A stretch of DNA of 64,000 nt from Mariniplasma anaerobium (GTDB lineage: Bacteria; Bacillota_I; Bacilli_A; Acholeplasmatales; Acholeplasmataceae): NCBI RefSeq assembly GCF_016865445.1, contig NZ_AP024412.1, forward strand, positions 1,550,001 through 1,614,000. Reading direction: 5' to 3'. Below, one piece after another: positions 7,900 through 59,914 of the stretch (position 1 is the stretch's first letter; each line of letters starts with the position of its first letter). The translations under genes were made by a program, and so were the position numbers. The notes under the pieces are model-generated. The model saw only the letters and a program-made list of their open reading frames with translations. It was not told where the DNA came from and searched no databases.

Positions 7900-8631
7900 C
7901 TATAAAATGTTTCGGATTTCATCAAGATGATATTTATAATATAAGCTCGGGCTATATGTATTAGAATAAAGCATTACTGCAATATGCTGTGGTCTATAAA
8001 TCCCAATATTAATCGTAGAAATCACAAAACTTTTCGTACGAACAAATATTATTTCTTTAATCATATCTCTTGTTTTATCATCTAACTCATCAATTTCTTT
8101 AATTTGAGTGATGATTATTCTATTTACTTTTCTCTTTTCTTTAAAGAGTTGATCTCTTAATTTGTTTATTTCTTTATCAATTCGATCTAAGTAAAAGTCT
8201 GTATTTTTATTTTTTATTAAAACCATAACAGTAAGAATGTTATTTCTAAAAATTTTCTTAATATGGTCTAACTCACATTTATAATAAATCGTAAATGTTT
8301 CATTGTCTTGATATTTGTCAAATCCGTTCTTTTTAAATAAATTTGAACTTGTATTAAAATTAACAAGTTGTGTGATAGGTAAAGGTTGCCCTTGACTTTC
8401 TCTAATACGAACTAAATATGACATATTTGTGATTCTATCAAGTCGGTTTTTAAATAACGATCCACCAATGATTAAACCTATAAAGATTAAAAGTGTTACT
8501 GGATAAGTAATATTCTCATTCTTAACGAATATATAAAGAAGTACGATACCTGCTGCAGCAAGAATCACTACACCGATCATCATCATCAAGCTCATAAAGA
8601 ATTGTCTATTTATTTTTTTTACATCATTCAT
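7900..8631 (-). CDS. Membrane-anchored protein of unknown function at the end of the opp operon
   Basis: 243 aa. Two transmembrane helices near residues 10-35 and 42-60 are followed by a soluble, charged, mainly cytosolic part containing a lysine-rich helix (about 150-170). No family recognised. Its start overlaps the preceding gene (8628-8993) by 4 bp, which in turn abuts oppF, so it is co-transcribed with the oligopeptide transporter. Last gene of the operon; terminator follows. Confidence 0.75.
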   Translation of the reverse strand: MNDVKKINRQFFMSLMMMIGVVILAAAGIVLLYIFVKNENITYPVTLLIFIGLIIGGSLFKNRLDRITNMSYLVRIRESQGQPLPITQLVNFNTSSNLFKKNGFDKYQDNETFTIYYKCELDHIKKIFRNNILTVMVLIKNKNTDFYLDRIDKEINKLRDQLFKEKRKVNRIIITQIKEIDELDDKTRDMIKEIIFVRTKSFVISTINIGIYRPQHIAVMLYSNTYSPSLYYKYHLDEIRNIL

Positions 8632-8993
8632 CTTAACGCTACCACCGAAAGGATAATACCTGCAACAACCAAAATAGATGATGCAATAAACATTTCTAAA
8701 AATATGGTTGTTTTTATGGTTACATCTTTTTCATTTTTATAATCACTAAATTTTGGATATGTTTGTCTAAATGCAGTTGATAAAAACGATCTAAATGCAT
8801 AATTAAACCCTTGAAAAACTTTATATGACTGAGTCATTGCAATAATTGTAGGAAGAAATGTGATCATCCCAACTACAAATAAAACATTAGACGCATTGGT
8901 TGAGGTTAAAGTTGATCCATATATCCATAAATGTAATAACACTGCGATAAGTAAAAGGGATATAAAAATTAGAATAAGTCTAAAAATTTTCAT
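8628..8993 (-). CDS. Small membrane protein, three predicted helices, unknown function
   Basis: 121 aa with hydrophobic stretches near residues 4-25, 35-52 and 97-118 and a charged loop between the second and third. It overlaps oppF by one base and the next gene by four, so it is translated as part of the opp operon. I recognise no family; an accessory role to the transporter is inference from position only. Confidence 0.72.
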   Translation of the reverse strand: MKIFRLILIFISLLLIAVLLHLWIYGSTLTSTNASNVLFVVGMITFLPTIIAMTQSYKVFQGFNYAFRSFLSTAFRQTYPKFSDYKNEKDVTIKTTIFLEMFIASSILVVAGIILSVVALR

Positions 8994-10462
8994 TATTTTG
9001 TAGCTTGTTTCTTATATTTCTTATACTCTTCAGTATTACACAACACAAAATGATCTTCTTCTATTTCTCTTAAAGTTGGTCCTTCTTTAGAATAATCATG
9101 TTCATCTTGAGGACTATATCTATGAGTCTTACCTCTTTGTTGTTCAAATAATGGGTCTGGTTGAGGAATTGAAGCCATAAGTGATAATGTATATGGATGC
9201 ATTGGGTTATCAAAGATTTTATCTTTATTTCCAATTTCAACAATCTTACCAAAATACATAACTGCTAAACGGTCACTAAAATACTTAACTACAGATAAAT
9301 CATGGGCAATAAACATAATAGTTATGCCTTTTTCTTCTCTTAAATCATTAAGTAGATTAATAACTTGTGCTCTAATAGAAACATCAAGAGCTGATATAGG
9401 TTCATCAGCAATAATAAATGATGGTTCGACAACTAATGCACGCGCAATACCGATACGTTGACGTTGTCCACCACTAAATTCATGAGGATAACGACTTGCA
9501 TGTTCAGGTACTAGTCCAACAGTCTTTAAAGCATCTTTAACTTTGTCATCAATAACTTTTTCATTTTTATATCCATTAATTCTTAAACCTTCTGCAATAA
9601 TTTCTTTTACAGTCATTCTTGGATTAAGAGATGCGATAGGATCTTGGAAAATCATTTGCATTCTACGCATTAATAATTTGTTTTCATGAATAAGATTATA
9701 TTGAAGACTTGATAAATCTTGTTTTCTACGGATACCATTTAATTTTAATTCTTTAACAGCATTATCAGCTTTTTCAACAAGTGCTTGATGTGCTTTTTTT
9801 GCTTGTTGATAAACATCTTTATTTTCTTTTGACATTTCTGCCAATGCTTTTTTAGATTGTGCAGCTTCTTCTTTTAATTGATCAGCTTCTTTTTTTAAAT
9901 CAACTTTTAAATCATCATATTTCTTATTGATTTCTACATATTCAGGGAAGCTCTTTAAGTTCTTTTTAGCATCTACTGCATGATCACTAACATTTTTTTC
10001 GAATTTTTTGTCTCTTTTTGCAAGTCTAAATACTTCTAAAGAAGCATTTTTTTCTTTTTCATATTGAGCATTAATTTCATCAGTTTTTTCAGCATGTAGT
10101 TCTTTATTAATAACTTGATTTTCTAATGCTTCTTGAAGTTTTTCTGCTTCTTCAATTTTAGCAGATTTTGCTCTCTTCATATTTTCTTTATGTTGTTTTT
10201 TTGCAGCCTTAACATCACTTACAATACGAGTGCCATGGAAAAATGCTTCTCCACCACTAGAATTGTAAAGTTTAATAATGGTTCTACCGGTTGTGGTTTT
10301 ACCACATCCGGATTCACCAACTAGTGAAAATACTTCACCTTTATAAATCGTAAATGAGACTCCATCTACGGCTTTGTTATACATTTTATTACGCCCAGAT
10401 CCTAATTTGAAATGTTGTTTTAGGTTCTCGACTCTTAGAATTTCTTCTCTTTTTTCACTCAA
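8993..10462 (-). CDS. oppF: Oligopeptide ABC transporter ATPase OppF with long coiled-coil insert
   Basis: 489-aa ATP-binding subunit of the peptide importer. Walker A GESGCGKTT (residues 49-57), Q-loop IFQDP (271-275), signature FSGGQRQR, Walker B IIADEPISALD and the C-terminal oligopeptide-transport region (MHPYTLSLMASIPQPDP) are intact. Between Walker A and the Q-loop lies an insert of about 175 residues (roughly 82-258), rich in Lys, Glu, Ala and Asp and free of Pro over long runs, so probably an antiparallel coiled coil projecting from the nucleotide-binding domain. Typical OppF is about 310-330 aa. Similar long inserts are known in mycoplasma Opp ATPases. Overlaps oppD by 4 bp. Confidence 0.92.
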   Translation of the reverse strand: MSEKREEILRVENLKQHFKLGSGRNKMYNKAVDGVSFTIYKGEVFSLVGESGCGKTTTGRTIIKLYNSSGGEAFFHGTRIVSDVKAAKKQHKENMKRAKSAKIEEAEKLQEALENQVINKELHAEKTDEINAQYEKEKNASLEVFRLAKRDKKFEKNVSDHAVDAKKNLKSFPEYVEINKKYDDLKVDLKKEADQLKEEAAQSKKALAEMSKENKDVYQQAKKAHQALVEKADNAVKELKLNGIRRKQDLSSLQYNLIHENKLLMRRMQMIFQDPIASLNPRMTVKEIIAEGLRINGYKNEKVIDDKVKDALKTVGLVPEHASRYPHEFSGGQRQRIGIARALVVEPSFIIADEPISALDVSIRAQVINLLNDLREEKGITIMFIAHDLSVVKYFSDRLAVMYFGKIVEIGNKDKIFDNPMHPYTLSLMASIPQPDPLFEQQRGKTHRYSPQDEHDYSKEGPTLREIEEDHFVLCNTEEYKKYKKQATK

Positions 10463-34288: not shown

Positions 34289-37200
34289 TTACTCACCCCA
34301 ATAATAAATGAAGTATGGTACTTCTTCTTCATCTACCAAATATAACTGATATGTATAAGAAAAGTGCGAAGTGCCAAACGTTATGAAAGTGGTTCTTGGA
34401 CCATCTTCAATGTAAAAATCTAACACTTCAATGTCCACAGACCACGCATGACCAGCTCCTAATAATTTACCAGATATGGATGTAGACATAAACTGGCCTT
34501 TATAGTCTCCTGGTTTATCATAATTATCTACAAATCCAATATCAATTGATAGTGGCGCATCTGAAATGTAAACACCATAATGCAGATAAATCTCAATATA
34601 CTGATCTGTGAAATTAATGACAATTGCTATGCCACCACCTACAATTAGTCCGCCTGTGATATCAATTACAACCGCTAAATCATCAGTATTTCCTGGTCCC
34701 CAATTACCACCATTCATTCCAGGATATTGATCATATGGATTACATCTTGGTCTCCATTCAGGATTAACTGAATCACCATTAGCATTTGCTAAGCAATATC
34801 CACTAGGATCAACATTCATCACAGGATTATTCTCAGTATAGGTAAACATATTATGTCCTAAAACTGTATCACTTGCTTTCAACATACCATCTGCATTGAT
34901 AAATCTTCCTGTTTCAGGATTGTAATATCTTGATTGCAAATAGTATAATCCGCTTTCTTGATCATAACGATATCCTCTATAACGATAAGGATTTGCATTT
35001 GCTAAAGCTGAAGATGTTTGAACAGTGATATTACCGTATGCATCATATCTATAATATACCACAGTATAACCATCAGAATCAATGAGATAAGACACATTTC
35101 CAAGCGCATCAAACATATAAAAATATTCAGATCCATTATATCTCATAGAGATTAAAGAGCCATCTACATCATATGTATAATAGATTTCATTGGTTCCATC
35201 TGTTTCATATAATACTAATGATCCATTCAAATAATAAGTCGTTGTGACTGTGCCTACAGTTTTTGAATCCCTGATTCCATCTTGGTTATATGTGTATGTT
35301 GAAGTCATAGATCCAATTGTTTGAGATATTAAGCTGCGTCCTTCCCATGTGAATGACTTGTCATAAGATGTACCTCTGGTATCATCTATTTCAGTAACAT
35401 TACCAGAATTGTCATAAACAAAAGTTAAAGTATAACTTAATGATGAATTGAGTACATCTATGTATACCATGCTACTGATTTTATCTTTCCAAGTAGAATC
35501 ATAACCATATACTTCAGTTTGTAATGGTGTAGGTAATGTATTGTTACCTTGAGCAAAATTATAATATGATTGCGTAGTTAGATTGCCATAATCATCATAG
35601 GCATAGGTAAAAGTATAATCGTCTATTTCGTTGTTTTCTCTAATAAGTTGGTTGTTTTCATCATAATAGTATTCCATGATATCGGAAGAAAAATCAGTTA
35701 TTTTTGTAATATAGCCTTGCTCATTATATTCCATGGTTTGTGTAATATAGTGATGACCATTGGTTTGAGTGATTGTCTTTATTCTTCTGGATACATCACC
35801 ATAAGTAACATCAACACCTTCATAATAACTATATAAAACTGTATTAATTGTTGTAGTATTTAGTGTTATGGATATATCAACTAATCGTCTTAAGTCATCT
35901 GTTTCAAATGTATAGTTTTTAGTTACATCACCAAATTCTGTGTTGTCGTAGATTCCAGATGTTAAATTGTAATTAAATGTTGTAGTTCGACTATATCCTT
36001 CAATATCAAAAGTATAAATGTGAAGATTTCCTGCATTATCATAATCATACGAAATAACATTCCCATCTTGATTTGTTACTTTTCTGATACGTCCTACAAG
36101 GTCATAATTATAATAATATTCTTGATTATCTCTTAAATCTTTCAATACTGTAAGATTACCTGATTGATTATACTCATATGAATATCTTTGTACATAGTGA
36201 TCGGTTTCATAAAACCATAAGCCCTCAATTTGATTTTCATCATTATAAGTTATTTTTATTTTATCCCCATTACCAAAAATTTCTTCAAAAATTCTACTTG
36301 TTTCATAGGTTACATTGCTAGCGATATCAGTATCATAAGTATATTCTTTTAGCATAGATCCAGAAAAAGTCCCTTCAGTTCCAGTTCCAATGTAAACATA
36401 TTCCAATCGATATAAATCATCATATTCTAGTTTGTAAGTCATACCATTCATTTGAATTTCATCAAGCACATCACCCGTGTAATGATAGGTGATTGTTGAA
36501 TCATCTTTGGATATAGTTTTTATTCTGCCTTTTTCATCGTATGTGTAGTTTGTTGCTATGTCTATTTCATTATCAAATGATGTTAAAAGTCCATTAAGCA
36601 GTCCCCTTGTATATTCTATTTCACTTCCAAATTCATCTGTTGTTTTAGAAATGTATTGACCTTGGGTTGTATAATACAAATAATTCTGATAGTATGATCC
36701 ATCAACTACACCGTCATCATTTGCATCTTCTCCAATTTCAACTCTATAGGCCTTATTATATTCATTATAAGTTATTGTTGCAGCGACATTGTTTTGTGAC
36801 ACATCTTTAAATAAACCTGAACTATAGGCCCCATAATATGTAACCTTATTATTTTGATCTGTACTTTGATCAAGTAAAAATCTGTTGTCTTCATTGTATT
36901 CATTGAAAATCACACCACTTGATTCAGGTGTGCGAATATATTCTGTATTCCCATATGCATCATAGCTATATTCGGTTCCAAAAGACTCATTATACATTTG
37001 TATACCATCAAAATATACTGTACCTTCACCTCTATAATATACTTTTACATTGATTGATGTAATAGTACTATCTACATATATTTTTGAAGCTTGATATTGC
37101 CATGATTCGATATCTGAGTCAAATTCGTAGTAATACTCATCTGAATTTGTTCCATCAGAAAGTGTCACGTAAATTCCAAAGGCTCTACCATCTGGATTTT

Positions 37201-40200
37201 GATCATAATGTTTATCTGGTGTTACATCACCTTTAGCCCATGCAGAAATAATATAATTACTTCCTGCTTCAAATTCTGAACTTGTCAGTGTGGTTTCAAT
37301 ATATTTACCTAAGTCAGCATCACCAATTATTCGAATGTAATAATCACCTAGAATACTATCATATAAATCGCCTTGTTGATTTTCAATACCATCATAAACT
37401 CGAGTTGCATTACTCAATGTCCATCCAGCTGTGTTCATCTCAAATGATGGATTGTCCAGTATATTAACTCGAGTGTCTTGAAATGCATTCGTAATTTGAA
37501 TATTATCAAAGTAAGCTCGTCCATTAACGCTATTATATAGTTTTATTGTAACTATTGTATTATCAGATGTTACATCAAAATCTACTTCTAGATATTTCCA
37601 TTCACCTAACTGATCATTTATTGGAGTATATTCTGTGCTCCCATCAACTGTGACAGCAAGATAGGCGTCCTCTGAAGTATCTCCATAAATGTAACCACTT
37701 AATTTATAATCATCTCCTTGATCAAGAATGATTTGTTGTTCTAGATGTGCTACTTGATTAGGATAAACAAATATATAAGCCGCCTTATCACCAAACAAAC
37801 TCTGCGTAGTTAAATAACTTCCAACTGGATTTTTAAAGAAGCCTGCATTTGAATCAATAACAAAATCCCAATTTGTATCAGTACTAAGTGTATTATACTC
37901 AAAGCTATGGTTTCCAATTGGATTTAATTGAGTTTTTTGAGGAAGTGATGATTCAACGAGTTTATGATTTAAAAATAAATTTTTACTTTCAAATGTTCCA
38001 GTCCAAGGATTCAAATATCTATAATATGTAGCATTTCCAAAATCATCTAAAATATTTACTGTATGTCCATAACTATCAAATGTATACATCACTGAATTTC
38101 CTAGATGATCTTCAAATGTTGTTTGATATAACGCATATTCAACATCAATGAATCCTAGATTGTCACTACCCATGGTATATTTATATTGATCAACTTTATT
38201 TAACGTGTCATATTGGATTTCAAGATTCAGTCCTTCACTTGAAGTTATCGAATCTAGTCTATCATCTCCGCCTAGTGAATCATAATAATCATAAATTACT
38301 GTATCTGAAGATGCATTTGCCATAAATGTTGAAAATCCTTGGTATGTAGAATTCACAATATCTAAATAACTTACTTGTCCTCTATAATCCTTATGATATG
38401 TGACACTAGATAAGTTTTTGTTGTTATTCAGTGCATTTGAAGAATATTCATATTCTATAACTTCAACTAAATTATATGAAGTACAATTTCCGTCTACATC
38501 CCATGTTTGAGCAAGTTGAATTAATTGGTATTCTAAATTATCATCTGTTGAATCATATTCAAAAGATATAAAATTACCATAAAAATCAGAAACTTTATCT
38601 AATCTATTGTTAGCATCATGATGAATATTTAAAAACTGTCCTGTCTTAAGATCTTCGATTCTAACAAGTCTTCCATTATCATAGATACTTCTAATCCTAT
38701 CAGGAGTATACACAATAATATCTAGATTTTGATCATTATTATAATCATCAACTACAAGAATGTTTCGGCTTCCATCATCTGCTAAGTACGTCGTTAGATT
38801 ATAGTCCCTAATAAGTGGTTCATCGGTTGCAAAATCTGCAGGAACATACTCAAAATAAGTCTTACTTCCGTTCGAATTTGTAACTATTCGTTCACCAGTT
38901 GTTGCATTTACCGATGCATAACTATCAAAATTCGTTCTCCATCCTAACCCATATCCTATATTAACATCTTTAAGATTTTCACTATAATACATGCCTATGT
39001 CAATAACAAGACCGTCATGTTTTCCAAAATAATCATTTCTAACAAAATTGAGCTCTCCAGTAAAATCATTAATCATAGCGGTTCCTGCATCACCAACCGG
39101 AGCACTGTGATAAGTCCAAAAGTTATATAGTCCTGTTGTGTACTGATAACCTACTATAACATTAGGTCCAATTGTATCTCCATATTCTTCTGATGCAAAA
39201 TACATATGATCGTTAGTTACTAGTGTCTGTTTGCTTAATTCAACAATACCAACTGAGCGATTATCTTCTAACCAATCATTCATAGCTTTTGTCATATCCC
39301 AGCGATAATACTCAATGCCTATATCTCCAGGATACACATAATCATAATCTTCAATAAATGTGTCTACATCGTTAAATGTATTTCTAGTAATATTGGTCCA
39401 TGATGACGTATAATTGACTTTTTTTAAGTTGATTTGACAACTTAAATAGTCACAATGATTATAAGTTGTTCCATAATATGTTCTTAACTGCAGATGTGCA
39501 TAACTTACAATCGCATCATCTGGAATCTCTGCGGTTGAAATTTCGATATAACTTTTATAGCTATCTATGCTGTTTTTTCCGACCATAAGAAAACTGCCAT
39601 ATTCAAATGCTTTTGAAGATGTGACATATTTATCTCGTATGCCTGGATTATCAGATCCATTAATCACTAAACTTGGATCAATTTTCACTGGATATGATGC
39701 TGTTTGTAACCACTCATCATTTGGAATGATTGTGATTTGATACACTTTATTACCTATATGATTAAGTTCATATGAAACATCATATGATGTATTTAATTCA
39801 TCATCTATCATATATAGTTCATCAAAGGAAAAAAGAACCTCATCATCTTGGTTTAAAAATAAAATACTTCCATTTTCATCTTGAATAAGAGATAAATCTT
39901 TTAGTTTATATTCAAATGTTAAACTGAATTCTTCAATATAGTTGTTGAGAATAATATTTTCTTTAATTTTACTACCGGTTAATATATACTCAATATCCAC
40001 ATCTTGAAGAACTTGACTATATAAAACTGATTGATTAATATTTATCAGTTCTTTGATATCATTTGATTCTGTTTTAGATTCATCATATTTCACAGTTGAT
40101 TGATTAATATCAAGAATACTCCAATCAATACTATACTTATCTAATGTTAATTTAATCGACTTATTATCATCAATTTTTTTCGGGAATTTCACTTTAAATT

Positions 40201-40618
40201 TATTATCCTTATTTTCTAACTCATTTCCAGTATCATATAAACTATTATTGATTTGCTTCCACTTTCCATCTTTTTGATAATGAATAACATCGTTATACAT
40301 AGCTACTTCATATGTTCCATCTACTTTGCGAAATGTTTTAGATGTTTCTGTTCTCTCATCTATCATCTCAGATTCTATAGCTACTTGACTTTGATCAAAA
40401 TCAGGATCATTCGTTGTTGGGTAGCTATCAAATGAAGACTGTTCTGTTATAAGTTCTTGATTTTCAATCGTTGCAGCTTGTACTTGAAATGCACTCCATG
40501 GTACTAAACTCCACAGTTGCCCAAACAATGCTAAAAAAACAAGCATTTTTGTACTTGCTTTTAACAATCTTACTAAAACCAAAATCTGTTGATTCTTTAA
40601 AGGTTCTTTCTTAAACAT
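34289..40618 (-). CDS. Secreted Rhs/YD-repeat toxin, WapA-like, full length
   Basis: 2109 aa. N-terminal signal or membrane segment (about 27-50, ending V-Q-A-A), then a DNRLRE-type region near 330-470 (AYVTSSKAFEYG, IPDDAIVSYAHLQLR), carbohydrate-binding-like jelly-roll domains (about 900-1220), many YD repeats (Y-D-x-x-G-N), and the RHS-associated core ending D-P-S-G-Y-C at about 1941. The last about 168 residues are a variable tip with a hydrophobic Gly-rich stretch (VVIDITGGLIVGGGIAIVI), suggesting membrane action. The plan is that of B. subtilis WapA, a contact-dependent toxin carrier. GGGGAG site before the ATG. The tip's activity is unknown. Confidence 0.88.
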   Translation of the reverse strand: MFKKEPLKNQQILVLVRLLKASTKMLVFLALFGQLWSLVPWSAFQVQAATIENQELITEQSSFDSYPTTNDPDFDQSQVAIESEMIDERTETSKTFRKVDGTYEVAMYNDVIHYQKDGKWKQINNSLYDTGNELENKDNKFKVKFPKKIDDNKSIKLTLDKYSIDWSILDINQSTVKYDESKTESNDIKELININQSVLYSQVLQDVDIEYILTGSKIKENIILNNYIEEFSLTFEYKLKDLSLIQDENGSILFLNQDDEVLFSFDELYMIDDELNTSYDVSYELNHIGNKVYQITIIPNDEWLQTASYPVKIDPSLVINGSDNPGIRDKYVTSSKAFEYGSFLMVGKNSIDSYKSYIEISTAEIPDDAIVSYAHLQLRTYYGTTYNHCDYLSCQINLKKVNYTSSWTNITRNTFNDVDTFIEDYDYVYPGDIGIEYYRWDMTKAMNDWLEDNRSVGIVELSKQTLVTNDHMYFASEEYGDTIGPNVIVGYQYTTGLYNFWTYHSAPVGDAGTAMINDFTGELNFVRNDYFGKHDGLVIDIGMYYSENLKDVNIGYGLGWRTNFDSYASVNATTGERIVTNSNGSKTYFEYVPADFATDEPLIRDYNLTTYLADDGSRNILVVDDYNNDQNLDIIVYTPDRIRSIYDNGRLVRIEDLKTGQFLNIHHDANNRLDKVSDFYGNFISFEYDSTDDNLEYQLIQLAQTWDVDGNCTSYNLVEVIEYEYSSNALNNNKNLSSVTYHKDYRGQVSYLDIVNSTYQGFSTFMANASSDTVIYDYYDSLGGDDRLDSITSSEGLNLEIQYDTLNKVDQYKYTMGSDNLGFIDVEYALYQTTFEDHLGNSVMYTFDSYGHTVNILDDFGNATYYRYLNPWTGTFESKNLFLNHKLVESSLPQKTQLNPIGNHSFEYNTLSTDTNWDFVIDSNAGFFKNPVGSYLTTQSLFGDKAAYIFVYPNQVAHLEQQIILDQGDDYKLSGYIYGDTSEDAYLAVTVDGSTEYTPINDQLGEWKYLEVDFDVTSDNTIVTIKLYNSVNGRAYFDNIQITNAFQDTRVNILDNPSFEMNTAGWTLSNATRVYDGIENQQGDLYDSILGDYYIRIIGDADLGKYIETTLTSSEFEAGSNYIISAWAKGDVTPDKHYDQNPDGRAFGIYVTLSDGTNSDEYYYEFDSDIESWQYQASKIYVDSTITSINVKVYYRGEGTVYFDGIQMYNESFGTEYSYDAYGNTEYIRTPESSGVIFNEYNEDNRFLLDQSTDQNNKVTYYGAYSSGLFKDVSQNNVAATITYNEYNKAYRVEIGEDANDDGVVDGSYYQNYLYYTTQGQYISKTTDEFGSEIEYTRGLLNGLLTSFDNEIDIATNYTYDEKGRIKTISKDDSTITYHYTGDVLDEIQMNGMTYKLEYDDLYRLEYVYIGTGTEGTFSGSMLKEYTYDTDIASNVTYETSRIFEEIFGNGDKIKITYNDENQIEGLWFYETDHYVQRYSYEYNQSGNLTVLKDLRDNQEYYYNYDLVGRIRKVTNQDGNVISYDYDNAGNLHIYTFDIEGYSRTTTFNYNLTSGIYDNTEFGDVTKNYTFETDDLRRLVDISITLNTTTINTVLYSYYEGVDVTYGDVSRRIKTITQTNGHHYITQTMEYNEQGYITKITDFSSDIMEYYYDENNQLIRENNEIDDYTFTYAYDDYGNLTTQSYYNFAQGNNTLPTPLQTEVYGYDSTWKDKISSMVYIDVLNSSLSYTLTFVYDNSGNVTEIDDTRGTSYDKSFTWEGRSLISQTIGSMTSTYTYNQDGIRDSKTVGTVTTTYYLNGSLVLYETDGTNEIYYTYDVDGSLISMRYNGSEYFYMFDALGNVSYLIDSDGYTVVYYRYDAYGNITVQTSSALANANPYRYRGYRYDQESGLYYLQSRYYNPETGRFINADGMLKASDTVLGHNMFTYTENNPVMNVDPSGYCLANANGDSVNPEWRPRCNPYDQYPGMNGGNWGPGNTDDLAVVIDITGGLIVGGGIAIVINFTDQYIEIYLHYGVYISDAPLSIDIGFVDNYDKPGDYKGQFMSTSISGKLLGAGHAWSVDIEVLDFYIEDGPRTTFITFGTSHFSYTYQLYLVDEEEVPYFIYYWGE
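34794..35599 (-). repeat. Rhs core repeat, copy 1 (within the full-length gene)
   Basis: Partner of 32952-33757, same length. The repeats could recombine and swap the EndoU tip and its immunity gene onto the full-length protein. Confidence 0.9.
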
Positions 40619-43438: not shown

Positions 43439-43465
43439 AAAGAGCATTTGCATGCTCTTTTTTTT
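43439..43465 (+). terminator. Ancestral tRNA-Trp terminator, now beside attR
   Basis: 9-bp stem AAAGAGCAT (43439-43447) with ATGCTCTTT (43452-43460), loop of 4, T run to 43465 on the plus strand. It may also serve phoR on the other strand. Confidence 0.75.
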
Positions 43466-45143
43466 ATATGATAATCTTAATTTCAGTTCCTTTTTGCAAA
43501 ACAGAAGTTAGTTTTATATCTCCATTATATTTAATAACGATATGTTTTACAATCGCCAATCCTAATCCAGTTCCACCATCAAGTCTACCTTTATCAACTC
43601 TATAAAATCTTTCAAAGACTCTATGTTGTTGTTCTTTATCAATGCCTATACCTTCATCTTTAACAGAAAAGTTCATTGTATTATTTTTGTTTTCCAATGT
43701 AACATAAATTGATTTGTCATTTGGTGAATATTTATAAGCATTTTCAATAAGATTTGTGAACAGTTTTGTGAAATCTATAGGATCACCAACATAATTTATT
43801 TCTTCTATTTCACTTATAAGTTTAATGTGTTTATCTTTATAAACTTGTTTTAATGAATTGATTACTTTGATTAATATTTTTGATAAGTCAATAACTTCAA
43901 AATGTTCTTCTTTAATGTTTTCTAAACGAGAAAGCATAAGCATATCTTCTACTAATGCATTCATAAACATTGTTTGTTCAACAATTTTACTAGATATATC
44001 AACAATCTCTTCTGGTTTTTTAATCATATCAAGCTGAATAAGTTCAGCATATCCTCTGATTGCGGCTAATGGTGATTTCAGTTCATGAGAGGCATGAGAA
44101 ATGAAATCTTTTTTCATTTGTCCAAGTTGTCTTTCTTCTGAAACATTATTTAGAGTTACTAATACTTTAGCTAAATCATTTGAGCTAGATTCGACATGTA
44201 AAGGTAAAACAAATGTATCATAAAAACTATCATTTATTTTTATGTCTTGATGAAATGTTTGATCAAGATTTAATGCTTCATCAATGGCTGTTTCTAATTT
44301 GTGTTCTCTTATAAAATTATAACTATTTTTATTTAAAAGTTCATCGTTTAAATCAAATAATGATTTCGCATTTGAATTATAAAATATCAAATTTTTATGG
44401 TGATCAAATAAAAGAATCACCTGTTTAATTTCATTTAATATTTCATTAGATTGTTTCTGATAATTTTTTATATGTGTTAAATTTGTTGATGTATCATAAT
44501 TAATTTGATTCATCTCATGCAAGATATTGTTAATCTCAGGATATTCACTATTTAAGGTCATCATTTGATATTTACCTTGATTTAATAATGTTAATCCATT
44601 GATAACTTTATCCCAAGGTTTTAATAAATTTTCATTTATTTTTTTTAATCCAATGTAATAAATCATAGAAATAATCATAATACTTAATACAAAAACAATT
44701 ATTGCTTGATTGTAAGTGCTTATTTGTGTCTCGATTGGAATTGATACTCTTAAATAATAATCATTGTCCAAACGAGTTGCTATATATAATAACTCAACAC
44801 CAATAGTGTCAGATTTTCTAGATTGTACACTGCCTAGATCTAGAATTTCTGGTCTTTGACTTTTATCTTTTCCAACTGCATCATCATGTGTATCAGCTAA
44901 AACAAATCCATTTTCATCTAAAATGGTGATACGTCTTTGGGTTTGTGCAAATAGACGAACAAAATCCGTATCTGTTTGATCAAAGTTTTCATAACTTGCT
45001 TCTACTTCATCTAATAAAAAAGACATCATCGATAATTGATGTTTTTTCTGAATTTGATATACTGACAAAATTGCAATAACAAAAAACACTATTAATGCAC
45101 TTAAAAGCAAAAGCATGTTTTTTCTTATAATAGTTCTTTTCAT
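43464..45143 (-). CDS. phoR: PhoR-type sensor histidine kinase
   Basis: 559 aa. Helix 1 (about 10-30), an extracellular sensor region (31-145) and helix 2 (146-166); then a HAMP/PAS-like part (about 235-335), HisKA with phospho-acceptor His353 in SHASHELKSP, and HATPase_c with N-x-x-x-N-A-Y-K-Y, DEGIGI and GTGLGLAI. It phosphorylates the response regulator encoded upstream, with a 4-bp overlap. Last gene of the pst-pho operon. In this family sensing goes through the Pst transporter and PhoU. Confidence 0.9.
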   Translation of the reverse strand: MKRTIIRKNMLLLLSALIVFFVIAILSVYQIQKKHQLSMMSFLLDEVEASYENFDQTDTDFVRLFAQTQRRITILDENGFVLADTHDDAVGKDKSQRPEILDLGSVQSRKSDTIGVELLYIATRLDNDYYLRVSIPIETQISTYNQAIIVFVLSIMIISMIYYIGLKKINENLLKPWDKVINGLTLLNQGKYQMMTLNSEYPEINNILHEMNQINYDTSTNLTHIKNYQKQSNEILNEIKQVILLFDHHKNLIFYNSNAKSLFDLNDELLNKNSYNFIREHKLETAIDEALNLDQTFHQDIKINDSFYDTFVLPLHVESSSNDLAKVLVTLNNVSEERQLGQMKKDFISHASHELKSPLAAIRGYAELIQLDMIKKPEEIVDISSKIVEQTMFMNALVEDMLMLSRLENIKEEHFEVIDLSKILIKVINSLKQVYKDKHIKLISEIEEINYVGDPIDFTKLFTNLIENAYKYSPNDKSIYVTLENKNNTMNFSVKDEGIGIDKEQQHRVFERFYRVDKGRLDGGTGLGLAIVKHIVIKYNGDIKLTSVLQKGTEIKIII

Positions 45144-45802
45144 TTGATTTGATATCCTATGCCACGAATGGTTTTTATTTCTAAAGTTGATTGTTTAGTT
45201 TTTAGTTTTTGTCTTAAAGATTTGATATGCATATCTAGTGTTCTTGATTCGCCTATAAAATCAGTATTCCATATAGATTTAAAAATCATTTCTTTAGATG
45301 TTGCACCATTTTGATTTTTGATTAATAATCTTAAAATATCATATTCTTTATTTGTCAAATATACTTCATCATTGTTCATCAAACAAATATGCTTATGATC
45401 ATCAATCTTAACATCTTTAAAACTATATATATGATCGCCTTGAATGTTTCTTAATCTTGCTTGTAGTCTTGAAGTTAATTCTAATACTCCAAATGGTTTA
45501 GTCATATAATCATCAGCACCCAAATCAAGTGCAATCACTTTATCCATTTCATTTTGAAGCGCAGATATCATCATGACAGGTATCTTATCATCCATTTTTC
45601 TAATAAGCTTTAGAATATCTAATCCTGAAACATCTGGAAGCATAATATCTAATAAAATCATGTCTGGTTTTTGCAACTTAAATTTATCAAAAAAAGCTTC
45701 GCCTGTTGAAAAACCATATCCTGTATATCCGGCATTTTCAATTGTTTTTTCTATAACATATTGTATGGCTTGATCATCTTCAACAAAATATACAATTGGC
45801 AT
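45140..45802 (-). CDS. phoP: PhoP/PhoB-type response regulator
   Basis: 220 aa. Receiver domain with acidic pair D9/D10, phosphorylation site D52 in MILLDIMLP, and the conserved Lys in YMTKPFG, followed by an OmpR/PhoB winged helix ending TIRGIGYQIK. It probably binds the 11-bp-spaced repeats upstream of pstS. Co-translated with phoR (4-bp overlap); 11 bp after phoU. Confidence 0.92.
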   Translation of the reverse strand: MPIVYFVEDDQAIQYVIEKTIENAGYTGYGFSTGEAFFDKFKLQKPDMILLDIMLPDVSGLDILKLIRKMDDKIPVMMISALQNEMDKVIALDLGADDYMTKPFGVLELTSRLQARLRNIQGDHIYSFKDVKIDDHKHICLMNNDEVYLTNKEYDILRLLIKNQNGATSKEMIFKSIWNTDFIGESRTLDMHIKSLRQKLKTKQSTLEIKTIRGIGYQIK

Positions 45803-45813: not shown

Positions 45814-46476
45814 TTAGAATAATAACGTGTTTTTATGTGTTCCTTTTACGATGAAAATAATCCATTGTGCGATGTTTACAGCGTGATCACCAACACGTTC
45901 AAAATATTTGGCAACCATGAGCACATAAATCAATTCATTTGCATCAATTTTATCATTTTTTAACTCAGTTGTCATCTTAAGAATAAGCTGTTGAAACAAA
46001 TTATCAACTTCATCGTCTTTTTTAATAACTTCTATAGCGATTGATTCATTAACTTGTACCAATCCCTTAATGCTTAATAATACCATTTCTTCAACAATAT
46101 CTGCCATTTGAGACGTAATTGGTAAAACTCTTTTATTTATCTTACCCTCTATATGTAGTGTCATCTCAGCGATGTCAGTTGCATGGTCTCCAATACGTTC
46201 TAAATCAGTTATTAATTTTAAAATACCAGTAACTAATCTTAAATCACTAGCTAGAGGTTGTTCTCTCCATATAATGTTTAAAGCAAGTTTTGCAATTTCT
46301 TCTTCATAACGATCCACTTCATCATCTTTTTTGATTACTATTTTCGCTAAATCTTGATCGCCATTTTTAAACGCTACAAGTCCTTCTCTTAAATTACTTA
46401 GTGCTAAATCTGCCATATGTGCTACATTTTTCTTTAACTCTTCAATCATTTCTTCTAAATGTTGTCTTAATGTCAT
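45814..46476 (-). CDS. phoU: PhoU, phosphate signalling regulator
   Basis: 220 aa, the normal length, made of two PhoU repeats, each with the E-x-x-R-I/V-G-D-H-A-x-x-I-A motif (DLERIGDHATDIAE and YFERVGDHAVNIAQ). These bind a metal cluster. It links PstB state to PhoR. The start is the ATG at 46476 (M-T-L-R-Q) behind a GGAGAAA site; the frame is open 33 codons further upstream, but that part lies over the pstB end. Confidence 0.93.
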   Translation of the reverse strand: MTLRQHLEEMIEELKKNVAHMADLALSNLREGLVAFKNGDQDLAKIVIKKDDEVDRYEEEIAKLALNIIWREQPLASDLRLVTGILKLITDLERIGDHATDIAEMTLHIEGKINKRVLPITSQMADIVEEMVLLSIKGLVQVNESIAIEVIKKDDEVDNLFQQLILKMTTELKNDKIDANELIYVLMVAKYFERVGDHAVNIAQWIIFIVKGTHKNTLLF

Positions 46477-46489: not shown

Positions 46490-47260
46490 TTATCCAAATC
46501 TACCCGTGATATATTCTTCTGTTTTCTTATGTTTAGGTGTTGAAAACATATGGTTTGTATCGCCAAATTCAACAACCTCTCCCATTAAAAAGAATGCAGT
46601 CTTATCAGAAATTCTAGCAGCTTGTTGCATGTTATGTGTCACAATAACAATTGTATATTCTTTTTTTAATTCTACAATTAAATCTTCTATTTTTGCAGTT
46701 GCAACAGGATCTAGTGCACTTGTTGGCTCATCCATTAAAATAACTTCTGGCTTCATCGCAATTGTTCTTGCTATACACAGTCTTTGTTGCTGACCACCTG
46801 ATAAAGATAGCGCACTTTCTTTTAAGCGATCTTTGACTTCATCCCAGATTGCTGCTTGTTTTAAACTCGTTTCAACAATTTCATTTAAAACTTGTTTATT
46901 TTTAATGCCTTGACACTTAGGACCATAAGTTATATTGTCATAAATGCTCATTGGAAATGGGTTTGGTTTTTGAAACACCATACCAACTTTTGTTCTAAGT
47001 TCAATAATATCAGTATCTTTTCTATAAATATCATCTTGGTGATATAAAACATCGCCTTTAATCACACAAGAATCAATCAAATCATTCATTCTATTTAATA
47101 CTCTTAAAAAAGTTGATTTTCCACATCCAGAAGGACCAATTAAAGCTGTAACTTCTTTTTCATATATTGGTAATTCAATTTGATTTAAGGCTTGTTTTTC
47201 TCCATAGAATAAATCTAGGTTTTTAATACTAAATGTAATTGGTTTATTTGTTGTCATCAT
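46490..47260 (-). CDS. pstB: Phosphate ABC transporter ATPase PstB
   Basis: 256 aa with Walker [10 protein letters not shown], the PstB-typical [14 protein letters not shown]-loop, signature LSGGQQQR, Walker [14 protein letters not shown] and the C-terminal E-Y-I-T-G-R-F-G ending. Energises phosphate import through PstCA. Its start overlaps the pstA stop by 4 bp. Confidence 0.97.
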
Positions 47261-48468
47261 TGAGTCACACCATACTTTCTCATAAATCTTTTTGAAATTA
47301 ACTTAACGGAAATATTTAAAACTAGTACCATAAATAAAATAATAATCGCAATGGTTGATGAAAGTTCTATATTTGCTGGTTCATCTGTCATCATTGACCA
47401 AATATGAACTGCTAGTGATGCTGATTTATCAGTTAAATAGATATCATCTTTAATTGATGTCCCTATCGCAAATACTAGCGCAGCACTTTCTCCAATGATT
47501 CTACCAATTGCAAGTAGGGTTGCGGTCAATATGCCGCTAAAAGCACTTGGAAGAATAACCTTGAATACAGTTTGCGTCTTACTTGCTCCAAGGGCTAAGG
47601 AGGCGTATCTATAGTCATCTGGGACAACTTTAAGACTTTCTTCTGTTGTTCTGATGATGATTGGAAGTAAGATCACAGCTAAAGTCATAGATCCTGAGAT
47701 CAGATTGCCACCAGTTGCTGATGTTAATTTAATCGTAATTGGAACAAATATAGCCAACCCCATTAATCCATAGATAATAGAAGGTACCCCTGTAAGTGTT
47801 TCTATAAATGTTCTTAGCATATTGTTAAATCGATTGTTTTTCGCATATTCGTTTAAATAAATTGCTGCACCAACTCCAATAGGTAGTGCAAATATTAAGG
47901 TGAGTCCTATCAAATAAATTGTTGTGATAATAGACCCTCTAATACCTCCACCAGTTGTTTGAAACTCTAGTTCTCTTATATTATCTTGTGCATCTAGTAG
48001 ATTAATCATATTTTGCGCTCCTCTACTAGATAGCGCACTAGCTGCTCCATCAAAAGCTATTCTTATGATCTCATAGTCTTTTCTAAGGGATAATGTAAGA
48101 GATCCGACACCTTTATTATTTAATGTATTTAAAGGTGAATCTTCATGGACATAAGTAACAACGATAACATTTTTACCTTGAAGATCTGTATCATCTGTTA
48201 ATGCAACTCCCCATTTTTGGGAATAATATGTATTTTCATCAATTTCTATATTGGATTGATATTCATTTAAAACAAATCCATCATTCAAATCTGAAATATA
48301 AGTAACAGCTGTATAGTTATGGGTTATTAAATCAATATTTAATAATTTAAAACCATTGATAAAGACAAACCCTATAATCATTAATAAAACACCAAGTGAG
48401 AAAAATGCTGCTCCATAAGTTGTAAATTTATATAATCTTTCTTTTACTTTTCTATTTAACATCGACAT
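47257..48468 (-). CDS. pstA: Phosphate ABC transporter permease PstA with extracellular insert
   Basis: 403 aa against about 280-300 for most PstA. Helix 1 (about 15-37) is followed by an extra extracellular domain of about 125 residues (about 40-175), then the usual five-helix permease core (from [15 protein letters not shown]), with the coupling motif [20 protein letters not shown]. Pairs with PstC. Overlaps pstC by 17 bp and pstB by 4 bp. The insert could contact PstS at the surface (inference). Confidence 0.93.
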
Positions 48469-49408
48469 GTCCCACCTTACGTTTAACTATATTTAATATG
48501 AGATTTGTCAATAAAATAACGACCATCAAGATAATGCCTACTGAAAAGCGGATATCATAATCTAATCCAACTGTTTCTTTCATACCTTCTAACATGATGG
48601 TTGTTAAGGTTGAGGTTGTGTCTAAAATATCAAAAGATAGGCCTGATCTTCTGCCACCAGCAACTAAACTTACTGCGGTTGCTTCACCCAAAACTCTTCC
48701 GATGCCTAGGATTACGGCTGTAAATATACCGGATTTTGCTGCTGATAAAACGACCTTAAAATTTGTTTGCATGGGTGATGCACCCAATGCAAGTGATCCA
48801 TTGATGATTTCTTTATCAACTGATCTAATTGCTACTTCAGAAATTGAAGTAATAGTCGGTATTGTCATAATCGCTAATACAATGACCGAAGATAATACAG
48901 AATTCCCACCCTTAGATTGATAACCGATAAGTGCACTTGCCTCATATACAACTTTTAAAACAAGACCTGCTCCAAATAATCCATAAATAATAGAAGGGAT
49001 TGAAGCTAGTAATTCTGTAACTGTTCTTAAGACTTCTGCTAATTTCTTAGGAGCTATTTTTGCTATAAATAATGCGGTTAATACACCAATTGGGAAACTT
49101 ATAAGTAATGAGAGTAATGCAATATAAACAGTACTAACAATAATAAATCCAATCGCATATAAATTTGAGTTAAATGTTTCTCCTCTAAGCCAAGTATCTC
49201 CTGTTATAAATGAGAAAAAATTAACACTTCCTAATCCACCATTATTTGAGATAAATGGTGTAATACCCTTAAATAAAATAACCCCTGCTACAATAAAGAC
49301 AAATGATGATGATAAAATTGCTAGAAAGAACAAAACACCTCTAACAATAATATCAATCATTTTGTTTTTACCATTCTTTGATTTTCTTATATTCATTAAT
49401 TGTTGCAT
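48452..49408 (-). CDS. pstC: Phosphate ABC transporter permease PstC
   Basis: 318 aa, about six helices, permease motif GSLALGASPMQTNFKVVLSAA and the PstC-type G-L-F-G-A-G turn after PSIIY. Normal length. The start is the ATG at 49408, preceded by AAAGGACG; a few upstream in-frame codons are probably not used. 66 bp after pstS. Confidence 0.95.
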   Translation of the reverse strand: MQQLMNIRKSKNGKNKMIDIIVRGVLFFLAILSSSFVFIVAGVILFKGITPFISNNGGLGSVNFFSFITGDTWLRGETFNSNLYAIGFIIVSTVYIALLSLLISFPIGVLTALFIAKIAPKKLAEVLRTVTELLASIPSIIYGLFGAGLVLKVVYEASALIGYQSKGGNSVLSSVIVLAIMTIPTITSISEVAIRSVDKEIINGSLALGASPMQTNFKVVLSAAKSGIFTAVILGIGRVLGEATAVSLVAGGRRSGLSFDILDTTSTLTTIMLEGMKETVGLDYDIRFSVGIILMVVILLTNLILNIVKRKVGHVDVK

Positions 49409-49474
49409 ATTATCATCGTCCTTTACACGCAAGAAAAGACCAATAAGGTCTTTTGTTGTTATTATTCAATATTC

Positions 49475-50425
49475 TTATTCACTAATTAAATCTGACCAAA
49501 GAAGGTATGTTCCATCATAAATTTTCTTTAAATCTTCAGCAGACACATTATTTAATGGATTATTTACATGTACGATTGCAACGATTGCATCCCATGCAAG
49601 TTGTCCATATTGATCCATATCTAATGCAGTTCCATCAACTTCTAATTCAGTTTCTTTAAATGGTCTAGATGCAAATCCAACATCTTTACCTACTGATTCA
49701 TCTTTTTGTGATCCTACAACTCTCTTATAAGCATCTCCTGAACCTGTGTGGTCATGATCTGCTACAAAATTACCAGCTTTTGCAACAAACGCTTGTGTAA
49801 GTGCTTCTGCAACTTTTTGAATGGAGTCAGATCCACCAAATCTAAGAGTAACTGTGCTATTATCTTGATTAGTTATAGGATAATCTGCTTTGATGTCATC
49901 CCAAGTTTGTGTCGCAGGTAGTGCAACTGCTCCAGCGTTATTAATAATATCTGCTGCATCAGTAGTTGTTAAGAATGCTACAAATGCTTCAACTAGATCT
50001 TCTACATCTTGACTTGGATAATCACCAGCTTGACGAACCATCCAATTAAATGGTCTTTTTAATCCATATGTATTATTAATTACATTATCAACCGTTGGTT
50101 CAATACCTTCATAAGATAGCCCTTTAATGTCATCAGTTAGACTTGCTAATGATACATAACCAATACCATATTCATCAGTTGACATCGAAGTCATGATGCC
50201 TGTATTATCTTTTATTACAAATCCTTCAACTAAAACATCATCACTTGATTCTGCTTCTGCAAATCCAATACCACCCATAAAACCAGCTCTTGTGCCTGAT
50301 GTGGTATCTCTTGTATATACTGTTATATTACTATCTGTGTTAAATGTTTCATCACTTTGACAAGCAGTAAGCATGAAGCCTAATGCTAAAATTATTACTA
50401 AACTTAATCCTTTAATTTTCTTCAT
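49475..50425 (-). CDS. pstS: Phosphate-binding lipoprotein PstS, circularly permuted
   Basis: 316 aa, lipobox L-T-A-C (Cys22). All PstS elements are present but in rotated order. Residues 33-170 match the usual second half: NITVYTRDTTSGTRAGF with the phosphate-binding S-G-T-R (43-46), IGYVSL (88-93), GIEPTVDNV, LKRPFN (122-127) and the closing AFVAFL helix (147-152). Residues 190-316 match the usual first half: VTLRFGGSDSIQKV (GSDS 198-201), GFASRPF (250-256), DAIVAIVHVNNPLNNVS and a final KIYDGTYLLWSDL. The cut falls between the W-x-D-L and V-x-x-R strands. It is first in the pst-pho operon, so function as PstS is expected. Confidence 0.88.
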   Translation of the reverse strand: MKKIKGLSLVIILALGFMLTACQSDETFNTDSNITVYTRDTTSGTRAGFMGGIGFAEAESSDDVLVEGFVIKDNTGIMTSMSTDEYGIGYVSLASLTDDIKGLSYEGIEPTVDNVINNTYGLKRPFNWMVRQAGDYPSQDVEDLVEAFVAFLTTTDAADIINNAGAVALPATQTWDDIKADYPITNQDNSTVTLRFGGSDSIQKVAEALTQAFVAKAGNFVADHDHTGSGDAYKRVVGSQKDESVGKDVGFASRPFKETELEVDGTALDMDQYGQLAWDAIVAIVHVNNPLNNVSAEDLKKIYDGTYLLWSDLISE

Positions 50426-50456: not shown

Positions 50457-50522
50457 ATTATAACGAAAATTAACTTTATTAGAAATCGTATTTTAGTAAG
50501 AGTTATGTAAAGAAAACGTAAA
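50457..50522 (-). promoter_or_regulatory. pstS promoter with Pho box
   Basis: Minus strand: TTTACG (50517-50522), TTTACA (50506-50511) and CTTACT (50495-50500), exactly 11 bp apart, close to the TT(A/C/T)ACA repeats bound by PhoP in Bacillus. The -10 TATAAT is at 50457-50462, 17 bp from a poor -35 (TTTCTA), typical of an activator-dependent promoter. Confidence 0.75.
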
Positions 50523-56984: not shown

Positions 56985-59777
56985 TTATCGATATACTTCT
57001 TCAGAATAGAAATAGTCTTGGAAGTATAAGAAGAAATCTTCTATTCTTTCTTCATCACTTAAAGTTAAATTATCAAAATCAAGTAATCCTAGTGCTTGGA
57101 ATTCATCAATAACATATTGGAATTCAGATACTACATCAGCTTTCATATAAACAACATCTTGTTGAATCATGTTTGTAGCTGCTAATACATCGCTATTTGA
57201 TAATAGATCATCAAATAAAATATCAATTGTATCAAATACTAATGCTTCGTTTACTGTAGTAAATGTGTTACTTGCTACCATGATAGCAACCACATATGCT
57301 CCCATTTCTGGAGAAGTTAGATATGTATTTGTAACTATAGGTAACAATGTTAAGTAGGATAGATCATCTGCTTCAGCTAATAAATCAGATTGTAGAGAAA
57401 TCACATTCAAAATGATTGTTTTTAATTCAGGTGTTAATGATGCATATAGTGTATCAAAATTAAGATCAGATCCACTAGCTTCTACTGCAGTTTTTAAAGG
57501 AAGTCTAGCTGCATCAAATAAAACTTGAAGTTGAGCGTCATCTAATTCATCAAAAATTTCAATATCAATATTATTTACTTCATTGATAATCAATGTAAGG
57601 TCCATTAAAATTTCTGTTGTTGTAGGTTCTTGAGTTTGACCTAAATTAATTACTATTTTAAGTAATCTTGCTTCTGAGTCAATCATATATGATAAAACGT
57701 CTGTAGCAGTGTCACCAAACATATCAACTAAAGCTTTATAAGTATCAAATTCTAATTTCATATCTTCTAAGAAATCTGTCATCATCATCGCATAATCCGC
57801 ATTAATATACTGATCATTTTCGATTTGATCAATTGCTAAATCTAATACCATTACATATATTTCTTCTAAGTATTCATCTGTTACAAGTGCTTCTAAAGCA
57901 GTGATTTGAACTGCATTATCAATCATGAATGTTTGTAGGTAATCAACTACAAATAATACAAAGTCAATTGCAACTTCTGGATTTTGTTCAAAATCCATAT
58001 TGCCATATTCATCTTGAGCGTCCATTAAGATATCTATAGCATCAGTCATAAGAGCTTCATCAATATCACCAATGAAATTTAACATTAAACTCATTGATAA
58101 ATATTGTGATTGTCCTAATAATTCCGCATAATCCATATAATCAGTCATATCATAGTCAGCTAAACTACCGCCAATGATAAACATTGTGTTATATATAGTT
58201 TCAAAATCTGTAGCTTCAGGTAATGCATTTTGTAAAACTAATACAAGTTCATCTTTTATGGTAAACATTTCAGTTGTTGAAATTTCTCCAGTTGACATAA
58301 ATTCATCAATTAAATCAATTGAATTTTGAGGTACAGTGTTTTTAACTGTTAACGCAAAATCAATAACAACTGTTAACGAATCAATAACATCATCTTTATT
58401 ATCAGTAAATAAAATGATTAAATCTTCATACATAGCCATTTCTTCTAAACTAGAATCACCATACATGTCAAAATCTTCAATCATGCTAACATACATTTCT
58501 AGATCATATAAATTATTTTGTTGTTTGTAAATGTTTGCTAAGAATAAAGCACCAGCTACATCAGCATTCATGCTATCCGTAATAGAAATTAAATCTAGTA
58601 TATATCCTTGTTCTTCATCACTTAAATGTGTATAGTACATTGGATTCACTGTATATCCACCACTAATATCCATTAAAACCATTATTAAATCATAGCTTTC
58701 GCCTGAGAATAACATATCTAAAGCAGCATATTCACTAGGATCTGCAAAAGTTTTTACGTAATCATATACAGCAATAAAATCAGCGTTTCCTGTAATTAAT
58801 GTTATCTGATCTTCAAACCCTGAAATCATTTCTACTCTATTCATTGCTGTTAATTCAATATCTCTAATTCTTGAATCAAGAAGTACAAATGCTAGTTCAT
58901 ATAATACGTTTGCTAAATCAGCAGCATCCATATCATAATCTTCAAATATTTCTAATTCCATCATCATGTCATCTAAACTAGTAGCTCTTGACATACCTGC
59001 AACCATATCATTAGCATCATTAATAAGATTAATAGCTCTGGTTGGAGTCATCCCCATACTAACTGCACTACTTGAAAATGCTTGAGCCATATCTAATGCT
59101 ACTAAATAATTATTGTATTCATAAACATCCTCAAAGTCATCTTCTTCTAAATCTAGAGTAAATGTAGGATCCATTCTTTGAATAAACACTAATGCGATTG
59201 CATCTTGATTTAGATTTAATTCAACTACATAATTAACTGTTGCTGAATTAACTGAAACATTTGTTCCATCAGAAGCAGTTACATAAACACTATAACTACC
59301 TACTGCAATAGATTCACTATTTAAATCTAGTGTTGCAGCTGTTACTGTGAAACTTTGTGTTCCAACATGAACGACATAACTAGTAGCACCAACTACACTG
59401 CCCCAAGTAAGTACACCATCATTTATTGCAACATTTGTCGGAGCTGGTAAACTAGAAACAGCTGCTTCTACAACATATGTAAGTACGCTAGATGGTACAG
59501 ACACCTTATCATCCTTAACTGCTACAACAGTAATTGAATAACTACCTGCTGCAAGTTCTTGATCATTTAAATCATAAGAAGTTGTTGATACAGCAACTTC
59601 AGTTGTATCTATAAAAACAATATATGAATCTGCTTGATCTACATCATCCCAACTTACTACACCATTTAATATTGCAACATTAGCAGGTGATTCTAAATCT
59701 AAATCAACCTCTTTGTTACATGATGCAAGTCCGAAAACAAACGATATAAAGACCAGTAATAAAACTATTTTTTTCAT
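56985..59777 (-). CDS. Large lipoprotein with two FN3-like domains and an acidic helical body
   Basis: 930 aa. Lipobox L-A-S-C (Cys20). Two similar domains of about 85 residues follow (about 24-105 and 107-190), each A-x-x-N-G-V-x-x-W-x-x-V-x-x-A-x-S-Y-x-V, the fibronectin type III pattern. The remaining about 730 residues are acidic, Met/Leu/Asp-rich and probably all-helical, with no family recognised. The start is the ATG at 59777 behind AAAGGAGG. An extracellular protein, perhaps a binding or scaffold lipoprotein. Single gene. Confidence 0.78.
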   Translation of the reverse strand: MKKIVLLLVFISFVFGLASCNKEVDLDLESPANVAILNGVVSWDDVDQADSYIVFIDTTEVAVSTTSYDLNDQELAAGSYSITVVAVKDDKVSVPSSVLTYVVEAAVSSLPAPTNVAINDGVLTWGSVVGATSYVVHVGTQSFTVTAATLDLNSESIAVGSYSVYVTASDGTNVSVNSATVNYVVELNLNQDAIALVFIQRMDPTFTLDLEEDDFEDVYEYNNYLVALDMAQAFSSSAVSMGMTPTRAINLINDANDMVAGMSRATSLDDMMMELEIFEDYDMDAADLANVLYELAFVLLDSRIRDIELTAMNRVEMISGFEDQITLITGNADFIAVYDYVKTFADPSEYAALDMLFSGESYDLIMVLMDISGGYTVNPMYYTHLSDEEQGYILDLISITDSMNADVAGALFLANIYKQQNNLYDLEMYVSMIEDFDMYGDSSLEEMAMYEDLIILFTDNKDDVIDSLTVVIDFALTVKNTVPQNSIDLIDEFMSTGEISTTEMFTIKDELVLVLQNALPEATDFETIYNTMFIIGGSLADYDMTDYMDYAELLGQSQYLSMSLMLNFIGDIDEALMTDAIDILMDAQDEYGNMDFEQNPEVAIDFVLFVVDYLQTFMIDNAVQITALEALVTDEYLEEIYVMVLDLAIDQIENDQYINADYAMMMTDFLEDMKLEFDTYKALVDMFGDTATDVLSYMIDSEARLLKIVINLGQTQEPTTTEILMDLTLIINEVNNIDIEIFDELDDAQLQVLFDAARLPLKTAVEASGSDLNFDTLYASLTPELKTIILNVISLQSDLLAEADDLSYLTLLPIVTNTYLTSPEMGAYVVAIMVASNTFTTVNEALVFDTIDILFDDLLSNSDVLAATNMIQQDVVYMKADVVSEFQYVIDEFQALGLLDFDNLTLSDEERIEDFFLYFQDYFYSEEVYR

Positions 59778-59914
59778 TGTATCCTCCTTTTTTATATAAA
59801 ACATTTTTTAGAAATGTGAAAAAACAAAATTAATTGTAAAGATATATTTATTATATTACTTCGTAATAAAAATAGCAATTCATTTGAACCCCATAATATT
59901 TTCTTTACATAAGC

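Follow-up and report, generated by a model that had tools for sequence, protein, structure and literature searches.

Can a phosphate-binding protein whose two halves stand in exchanged order be the working PstS of its operon? The question is raised by a gene in a 64,000-nucleotide stretch of Mariniplasma anaerobium DNA (NZ_AP024412.1, positions 1,550,001 to 1,614,000; hereafter the window, in whose own numbering all window positions are given), which the initial annotation, made from the letters of the DNA, read as a circularly permuted pstS. From its sequence and surroundings, we consider the gene to be, very probably, a naturally circularly permuted pstS, predicted to supply a PstSCAB-PhoU importer with its working phosphate-binding lipoprotein.

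The pst operon of the window

The permuted pstS is followed by pstC, pstA, pstB and phoU, and then by genes for a response regulator and a sensor kinase (Table 1). This bears out the pst-pho operon described at first, with PstC, PstA, PstB and PhoU scoring above their NCBIfam cut-offs and the regulator and kinase below theirs. The gene had likewise been called intact and equipped with a lipoprotein signal, as its uninterrupted frame and lipobox confirm; Cys22 of the lipobox is invariant across 25 homologues, and the LTAC motif predicts a protein that is exported and lipid-anchored. Since dN/dS against four congeners is 0.14–0.16, pstS is under purifying selection. No second pstS, of normal order or otherwise, was found in the host genome (1.9 Mb, 99.98% complete), which belongs to the Acholeplasmataceae and is congeneric with Tenericutes bacterium MO-XQ. 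The Pho-box-like repeat upstream of pstS is retained at −96/−97 in three of four congeners, and is similar to TTTACACAATCTTTACA, the Pho box found 92 bp upstream of pstS1 in S. pneumoniae (PMC4913102).

Table 1. Features of the pst locus in the window
Feature	Position	Strand	Details
Pho-box-like direct repeat	50506..50522	minus	TTTACG-N5-TTTACA; 97 bp upstream of the pstS start codon
Permuted pstS	49475..50425	minus	316 aa, ATG start, span includes stop codon; frame intact
Lipoprotein signal, residues 1–22	50360..50425	minus	Lipobox LTAC, Cys22
Old C-half in first place, residues 31–168	49922..50335	minus	V-Y-T-R...S-G-T-R, I-G-Y-V-S-L, L-K-R-P-F, closing helices
Linker between old C and N termini, residues 169–190	49856..49921	minus	Predicted short helix at W-D-D-I-K-A-D
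Old N-half in second place, residues 191–312	49490..49855	minus	F-G-G-S, T-G-S-G, A-S-R-P, I-V-H-V-N-N-P-L, W-S-D
pstC	48452..49432	minus	TIGR02138, 219 bits, above cut-off; ORF taken from TTG, real start perhaps further inside
pstA	47257..48468	minus	403 aa, extra domain between first membrane helix and permease core; above NCBIfam cut-off
Extra PstA segment, residues about 41–172 (conserved about 78–172)	47953..48348, approximate	minus	Precedes the permease core
pstB	46490..47260	minus	TIGR00972, 429 bits, above cut-off
phoU	45814..46476	minus	TIGR02135, 191 bits, above cut-off; inner ATG fitting the family used, ORF open to 46575
PhoB/PnpR-like response regulator	45140..45802	minus	Best match PhoB, below cut-off
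PnpS/PhoR-like sensor kinase	43464..45143	minus	Best match PnpS, below cut-off

Some further features were observed in passing. The MO-XQ genome (CP017948.1) carries two pstS genes of equal score (L034 and L036) on one strand, separated by ~99 kb, which may stem from duplication of a large region or from a repeat in the assembly. Elsewhere on the minus strand of the window, positions 34289–40618 encode a 2109-aa protein with an RHS repeat match (PF05593, 32 bits), large for such a genome, and positions 56985–59804 a 939-aa lipoprotein-like ORF with no Pfam match at an E-value of 1e-5 or better.

Order of the two halves

Homology to known PstS extends over the whole domain, with both halves of the protein matching PstS profiles and solved PstS structures. 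Window residues 30–167 correspond to positions 160–293 of TIGR02136 (NCBIfam), and residues 189–312 to positions 6–125 of PF12849 (Pfam PBP_like_2; 73.7 bits, above the gathering cut-off of 27), placing the second-half block before the first-half block as the initial annotation had read from the motifs, and dividing the profile hits into the two swapped segments that it had predicted. The solved normal-order PstS 4gd5, 4q8r, and 1twy also align to the window protein as two blocks in swapped order, rather than collinearly over the full length. Weak hits, for instance to Adeno_hexon_C (16 bits, below cut-off), were set aside as chance.

In a rotation scan, the window chain was cut, rotated and scored with an HMM trained on 26 PstS of normal order. 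The native order scores 79.8 bits, with the C-half alone matched, and a cut anywhere in residues 170–188 raises the score to 138.0 bits across profile positions 3–240, a gain of 58 bits in a single unbroken alignment. The controls comprised 200 shuffles, the best of which reached 5.6 bits, and a normal PstS of Vibrio, which scored best when unrotated. Rotation likewise yields a single continuous TIGR02136 match (positions 40–293) and lifts the score against this profile from 106.5 to 120.2 bits, with the curated cut-off of 206.6 not reached; the window PstS is thus a relative outside the curated TIGR02136 subfamily of normal-order PstS. These results confirm the swapped order of the halves, and support circular permutation as its reading.

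The break itself falls where it had been placed, in the short loop that follows W-S-x-L and leads into the I-x-V-x-R strand, with the window chain starting directly after the loop that in normal PstS links W-S-[DE]-V-G-G to this strand. Among the loci examined, the loop between the half-HMM matches is 4 residues long in 33 of 39 normal-order PstS, typically VGG-x after W-[SK], and permuted chains start directly past it. The joint of the old termini, first estimated at about 20 residues (170–190), has 22 (169–190). Corresponding linkers span 15–27 residues in other permuted PstS, with the exception of L158 (13), and 12–13 in those of the streptococcal type. With this topology, the lipid anchor would exit from the loop between the halves, and no longer from the old N-terminus.

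Predicted fold and the pneumococcal counterpart

The AlphaFold model of the window PstS was obtained from a 25-sequence alignment with a mean pLDDT of 91, single-sequence input giving only 31. A search of the PDB reveals one chain collinear with the window protein over its full length, 4H1X, S. pneumoniae SP_2084, which is also the top Foldseek match of the model, ahead by ~18 orders of magnitude in E-value. VIA-align superposes the model on 4H1X with a Z-score of 29.8 over 251 residues at 1.9 Å, compared with a Z-score of 10.8 over ~132 residues, equivalent to one half, for normal-order PstS. Rotation of the 4H1X sequence raises its own score from 131 to 257 bits. The prediction shows the window PstS folding like SP_2084, a two-lobed PstS with an identical order of halves.

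The 4H1X structure was released in 2012 under the name PstS 2, a name at odds with the physiology literature, in which SP_2084–2088 constitute the Pst1 system (PMC6722419). In S. pneumoniae, low phosphate induces Pst1, which is required for optimal phosphate uptake (PMC4913102), and since SP_2084 belongs to it, a permuted PstS forms part of a proven phosphate-uptake system. The statement of the initial annotation that no permuted PstS had been described stands in part. A literature search limited to open access found no paper calling any PstS permuted; the order itself, however, is already present in 4H1X and in many pst operons of part of the Bacilli. The permutation therefore sits in a solved structure, apparently undescribed as such in the literature found.

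Distribution and annotation

Homologues of the same order, which the initial annotation had proposed to look for in Acholeplasmatales and Izemoplasmatales, are abundant, with all 80 of the 80 best GTDB loci collinear with the window protein. These include loci from Acholeplasma laidlawii, A. oculi, A. granularum, Paracholeplasma, Peloplasma, Izemoplasma, Erysipelotrichaceae, and Haloplasmataceae, with A. laidlawii, A. oculi, A. granularum, and Paracholeplasma vituli among the isolates that carry the permuted order. A class-wide sample queried with the pneumococcal PstS gave 99 genomes with a match, 73 of them collinear (permuted) and 26 split (normal) only, a ratio inflated because the query is itself permuted. 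The genus Streptococcus is represented here solely by the 4H1X sequence, taken from PDB alignments, and no high-identity match to 4H1X was found in the class and phylum genome sets searched.

Complete pstCAB-phoU operons headed by a permuted pstS also occur in Monoglobus pectinilyticus (L175) and on Treponema saccharophilum pTS2 (L176), both in records labelled as plasmids. As these operons lie outside the Bacilli, transfer or a broader distribution is suggested. The permuted PstS is not peculiar to the host genome or to the Acholeplasmatales, and is widespread. No relative was found in viral contigs.

The permuted PstS falls below the NCBI naming cut-off, an observation that seems to be new. 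Those of Monoglobus and Treponema, both under the TIGR02136 cut-off, are annotated just as “substrate-binding domain-containing protein”, and through the permuted order the phosphate-binding protein of entire lineages thus receives a generic name.

An additional domain in the partner PstA

The permuted PstS comprise a type A group (Acholeplasma, Izemoplasma, Erysipelotrichaceae and relatives) and a type S, or streptococcal, group, which differ in their partner permease. In the window PstA, 169 residues precede the permease core, and in type A operons 152–219, with 268 counted from an uncertain start in L237. The corresponding stretch in normal-order and streptococcal-type operons has 38–66 residues, save in L176, L217, and L223, where starts are uncertain or PstC and PstA are fused. 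The surplus in type A, seen for example in L226, L234, and L236, consists of a conserved segment, ~110 residues long, that follows the first membrane helix and precedes the core. A profile of this segment matches the window PstA, the type A loci with enough flank, and 76 of the 80 best GTDB loci, with no match in the normal-order or type S loci examined. One genome (G232) holds both arrangements in two operons, a normal PstS with a short PstA, and a permuted PstS with a long PstA.

The segment has no Pfam family at a meaningful score. PDZ_2 matches one of 12 members (E = 0.027), a PDB sequence search returned no PDZ match, and the pattern hints at a PDZ-like fold as a candidate. The domain is probably extracellular, and may dock PstS. 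Its presence in one of the two permuted lineages seems to be a new finding, and offers a concrete case in which to test whether a binding protein and its membrane partner co-evolved.

One origin or several

For the tree, both PstS halves were arranged in a common order, and 200 bootstrap trees and an AU test were computed. The permuted PstS form two groups, types A and S, with normal-order PstS between them on well-supported branches; the placement of L150 and L154, entered with type S, is unsure. A single ancient permutation, ancestral to all permuted PstS and spread both vertically and by transfer, would explain the breakpoint loop that they have in common, and the AU test does not reject one permuted clade (p = 0.276). 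Independent events at the same site are favoured by the best trees, with none of the 200 bootstrap trees requiring just one order change, as well as by the unequal linkers (12–13 versus mostly 15–27 residues) and the confinement of the extra PstA domain to just one permuted group. With the bootstrap trees against one clade and the AU test compatible with it, we place the single ancient event slightly below an even chance.

The permutation may have arisen by tandem duplication and fusion, giving an N-C-N-C protein from which the outer halves were then lost. Among the loci examined, no N-C-N-C protein that could represent this first intermediate was seen. Two neighbouring normal-order pstS genes do stand in one operon (L208, G085:C1 143781–145542), an arrangement that could yield an N-C-N-C fusion. 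The normal-order PstS L134, with a high C-half score and a seemingly long PstA, was considered as a possible reversion and rejected, as PstC and PstA form a single fused frame at this locus and lack the extra domain.

The duplication-fusion route appears to be legible a second time within the family, in fused C-N-C-N tandems and in a re-cut form that matches a tandem interior. The tandems, ~590–680 aa long, occur in five genomes, G007 (L178), G008 (L020), G012 (L026), G053 (L139), and G042 (L141), with internal copies 75–97% identical to each other and an interior, N1-C2, that TIGR02136 reads as a normal-order PstS. A further tandem PstS (L179, G021:C1 about 8422–10207) has a frame break in its first C-half, either through decay or through sequencing error.

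The re-cut form is found in G020 alone among 88 family genomes, 42 of them with a match. G020, an Acholeplasmataceae genome of ~99% completeness, has this as its sole pstS (L140 1492–2421, minus strand; L177 3843–4772, minus strand), an intact 309-aa frame with a lipobox, heading pstC, pstA, pstB, and phoU. In its chain the closing helices of the C-half come first, followed by the N-half and then by the remaining C-half, which ends in ...LKRPFMFVTRY. Its alignment to the A. granularum PstS L103, its nearest relative in the tree, is split (33–202 to 147–316, and 208–309 to 35–135), and its residues 25–306 are collinear with the interior, residues 133–412, of the tandem of the congeneric G007 (L178 5449–7224, 591 aa). 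As the tree pairs L140 with L103, a single-copy permuted PstS, and not with the G007 tandem, the latter illustrates an intermediate rather than the direct ancestor of the G020 form. The G020 protein is a differently cut permutant, read here as second-generation, a finding that, along with the related tandems, seems to be new. With normal, permuted, fused-tandem, and re-cut PstS present in related genomes, the duplication route to permutation is open to study in living examples.

These observations could be drawn together in an account with at least two independent PstS permutations at the same loop, a re-permutation elsewhere via tandem fusion in the Acholeplasmataceae, and an Acholeplasma-type topology that co-evolved with an added extracellular PstA domain docking the permuted PstS. 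We offer this account tentatively, and regard it in its entirety as rather unlikely.

Phosphate contacts and other readings of the protein

The window PstS keeps the contact-motif residues R39, S43-G44-T45, S199, S229, and S253, in columns that contact phosphate in E. coli PstS. The motifs (R-x3-S-G-T, G-S-x-S, the serine of the second N-half motif, and S-R) occupy the same columns in permuted and normal sets, and their residues are shared by the 47 permuted PstS of type A, the 11 of type S, and nearly all 29 normal ones. One motif column, position 200, differs, with Asp or Thr in part of the type A group. This variation could be taken to indicate a shift to another oxyanion such as phosphite, phosphonate, or arsenate, with the swap as part of a change of substrate. 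Such a shift is very improbable, however, given the unaltered contact-motif residues, the Pho-box-like repeat upstream, the place of the pneumococcal counterpart in a phosphate uptake system, and the position of the gene ahead of pstC-pstA-pstB-phoU as the sole pstS found in the genome. As a phosphate-binding protein, the window PstS would close on its ligand as any PstS does, and deliver it to PstC/PstA.

The two-lobed binding-protein fold has an internal pseudo-symmetry, through which similar lobes might each be aligned to the wrong half of an ordinary PstS, creating an apparent swap. This reading is ruled out by the half-specific HMMs, which separate 137 C-N from 34 N-C architectures cleanly, by the continuous alignment gained on rotation, and by the match to the solved 4H1X. 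An assembly error, chimera or decaying duplicate is ruled out by the distribution of the order over dozens of genomes, isolates included, and runs counter to the intact, selected frame and the lack of any other pstS found in the genome.

Comparison with known systems

To our knowledge, natural circular permutations of the binding proteins of ABC importers have seldom been documented. One has been recognised in Treponema pallidum Tp0684 (TpMglB-2), an ABC-type binding lipoprotein (PMC4990184). In contrast to the window PstS, Tp0684 binds glucose, has a Type I/Cluster B fold and a different breakpoint, and lacks detailed homology to it. Another protein, B. subtilis OpuAC, has halves described as swapped relative to E. 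coli ProX, and follows PstS in the order-dependent structural search with 217–223 residues aligned; it differs from the window PstS in family and ligand, with ~10% identity, and its Z-score of about 9 perhaps reflects mere common architecture.

Two kinds of normal-order PstS that belong to the TIGR02136 type, those of C. perfringens (4Q8R/4GD5) and V. cholerae (1TWY), possess the same halves and motifs as the window protein, with relatives sharing its operon context, but their halves are reversed, and without rotation just one half aligns. S. pneumoniae SP_2084 has the same permutation and the same breakpoint, is collinear with the window PstS throughout, and has its gene at the head of a pst operon that is likewise preceded by a Pho box. 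It differs in its ~25% identity and in its linker of 12–13 residues, compared with 22 in the window, with its streptococcal-type relatives also differing in a partner PstA that lacks the extra domain.
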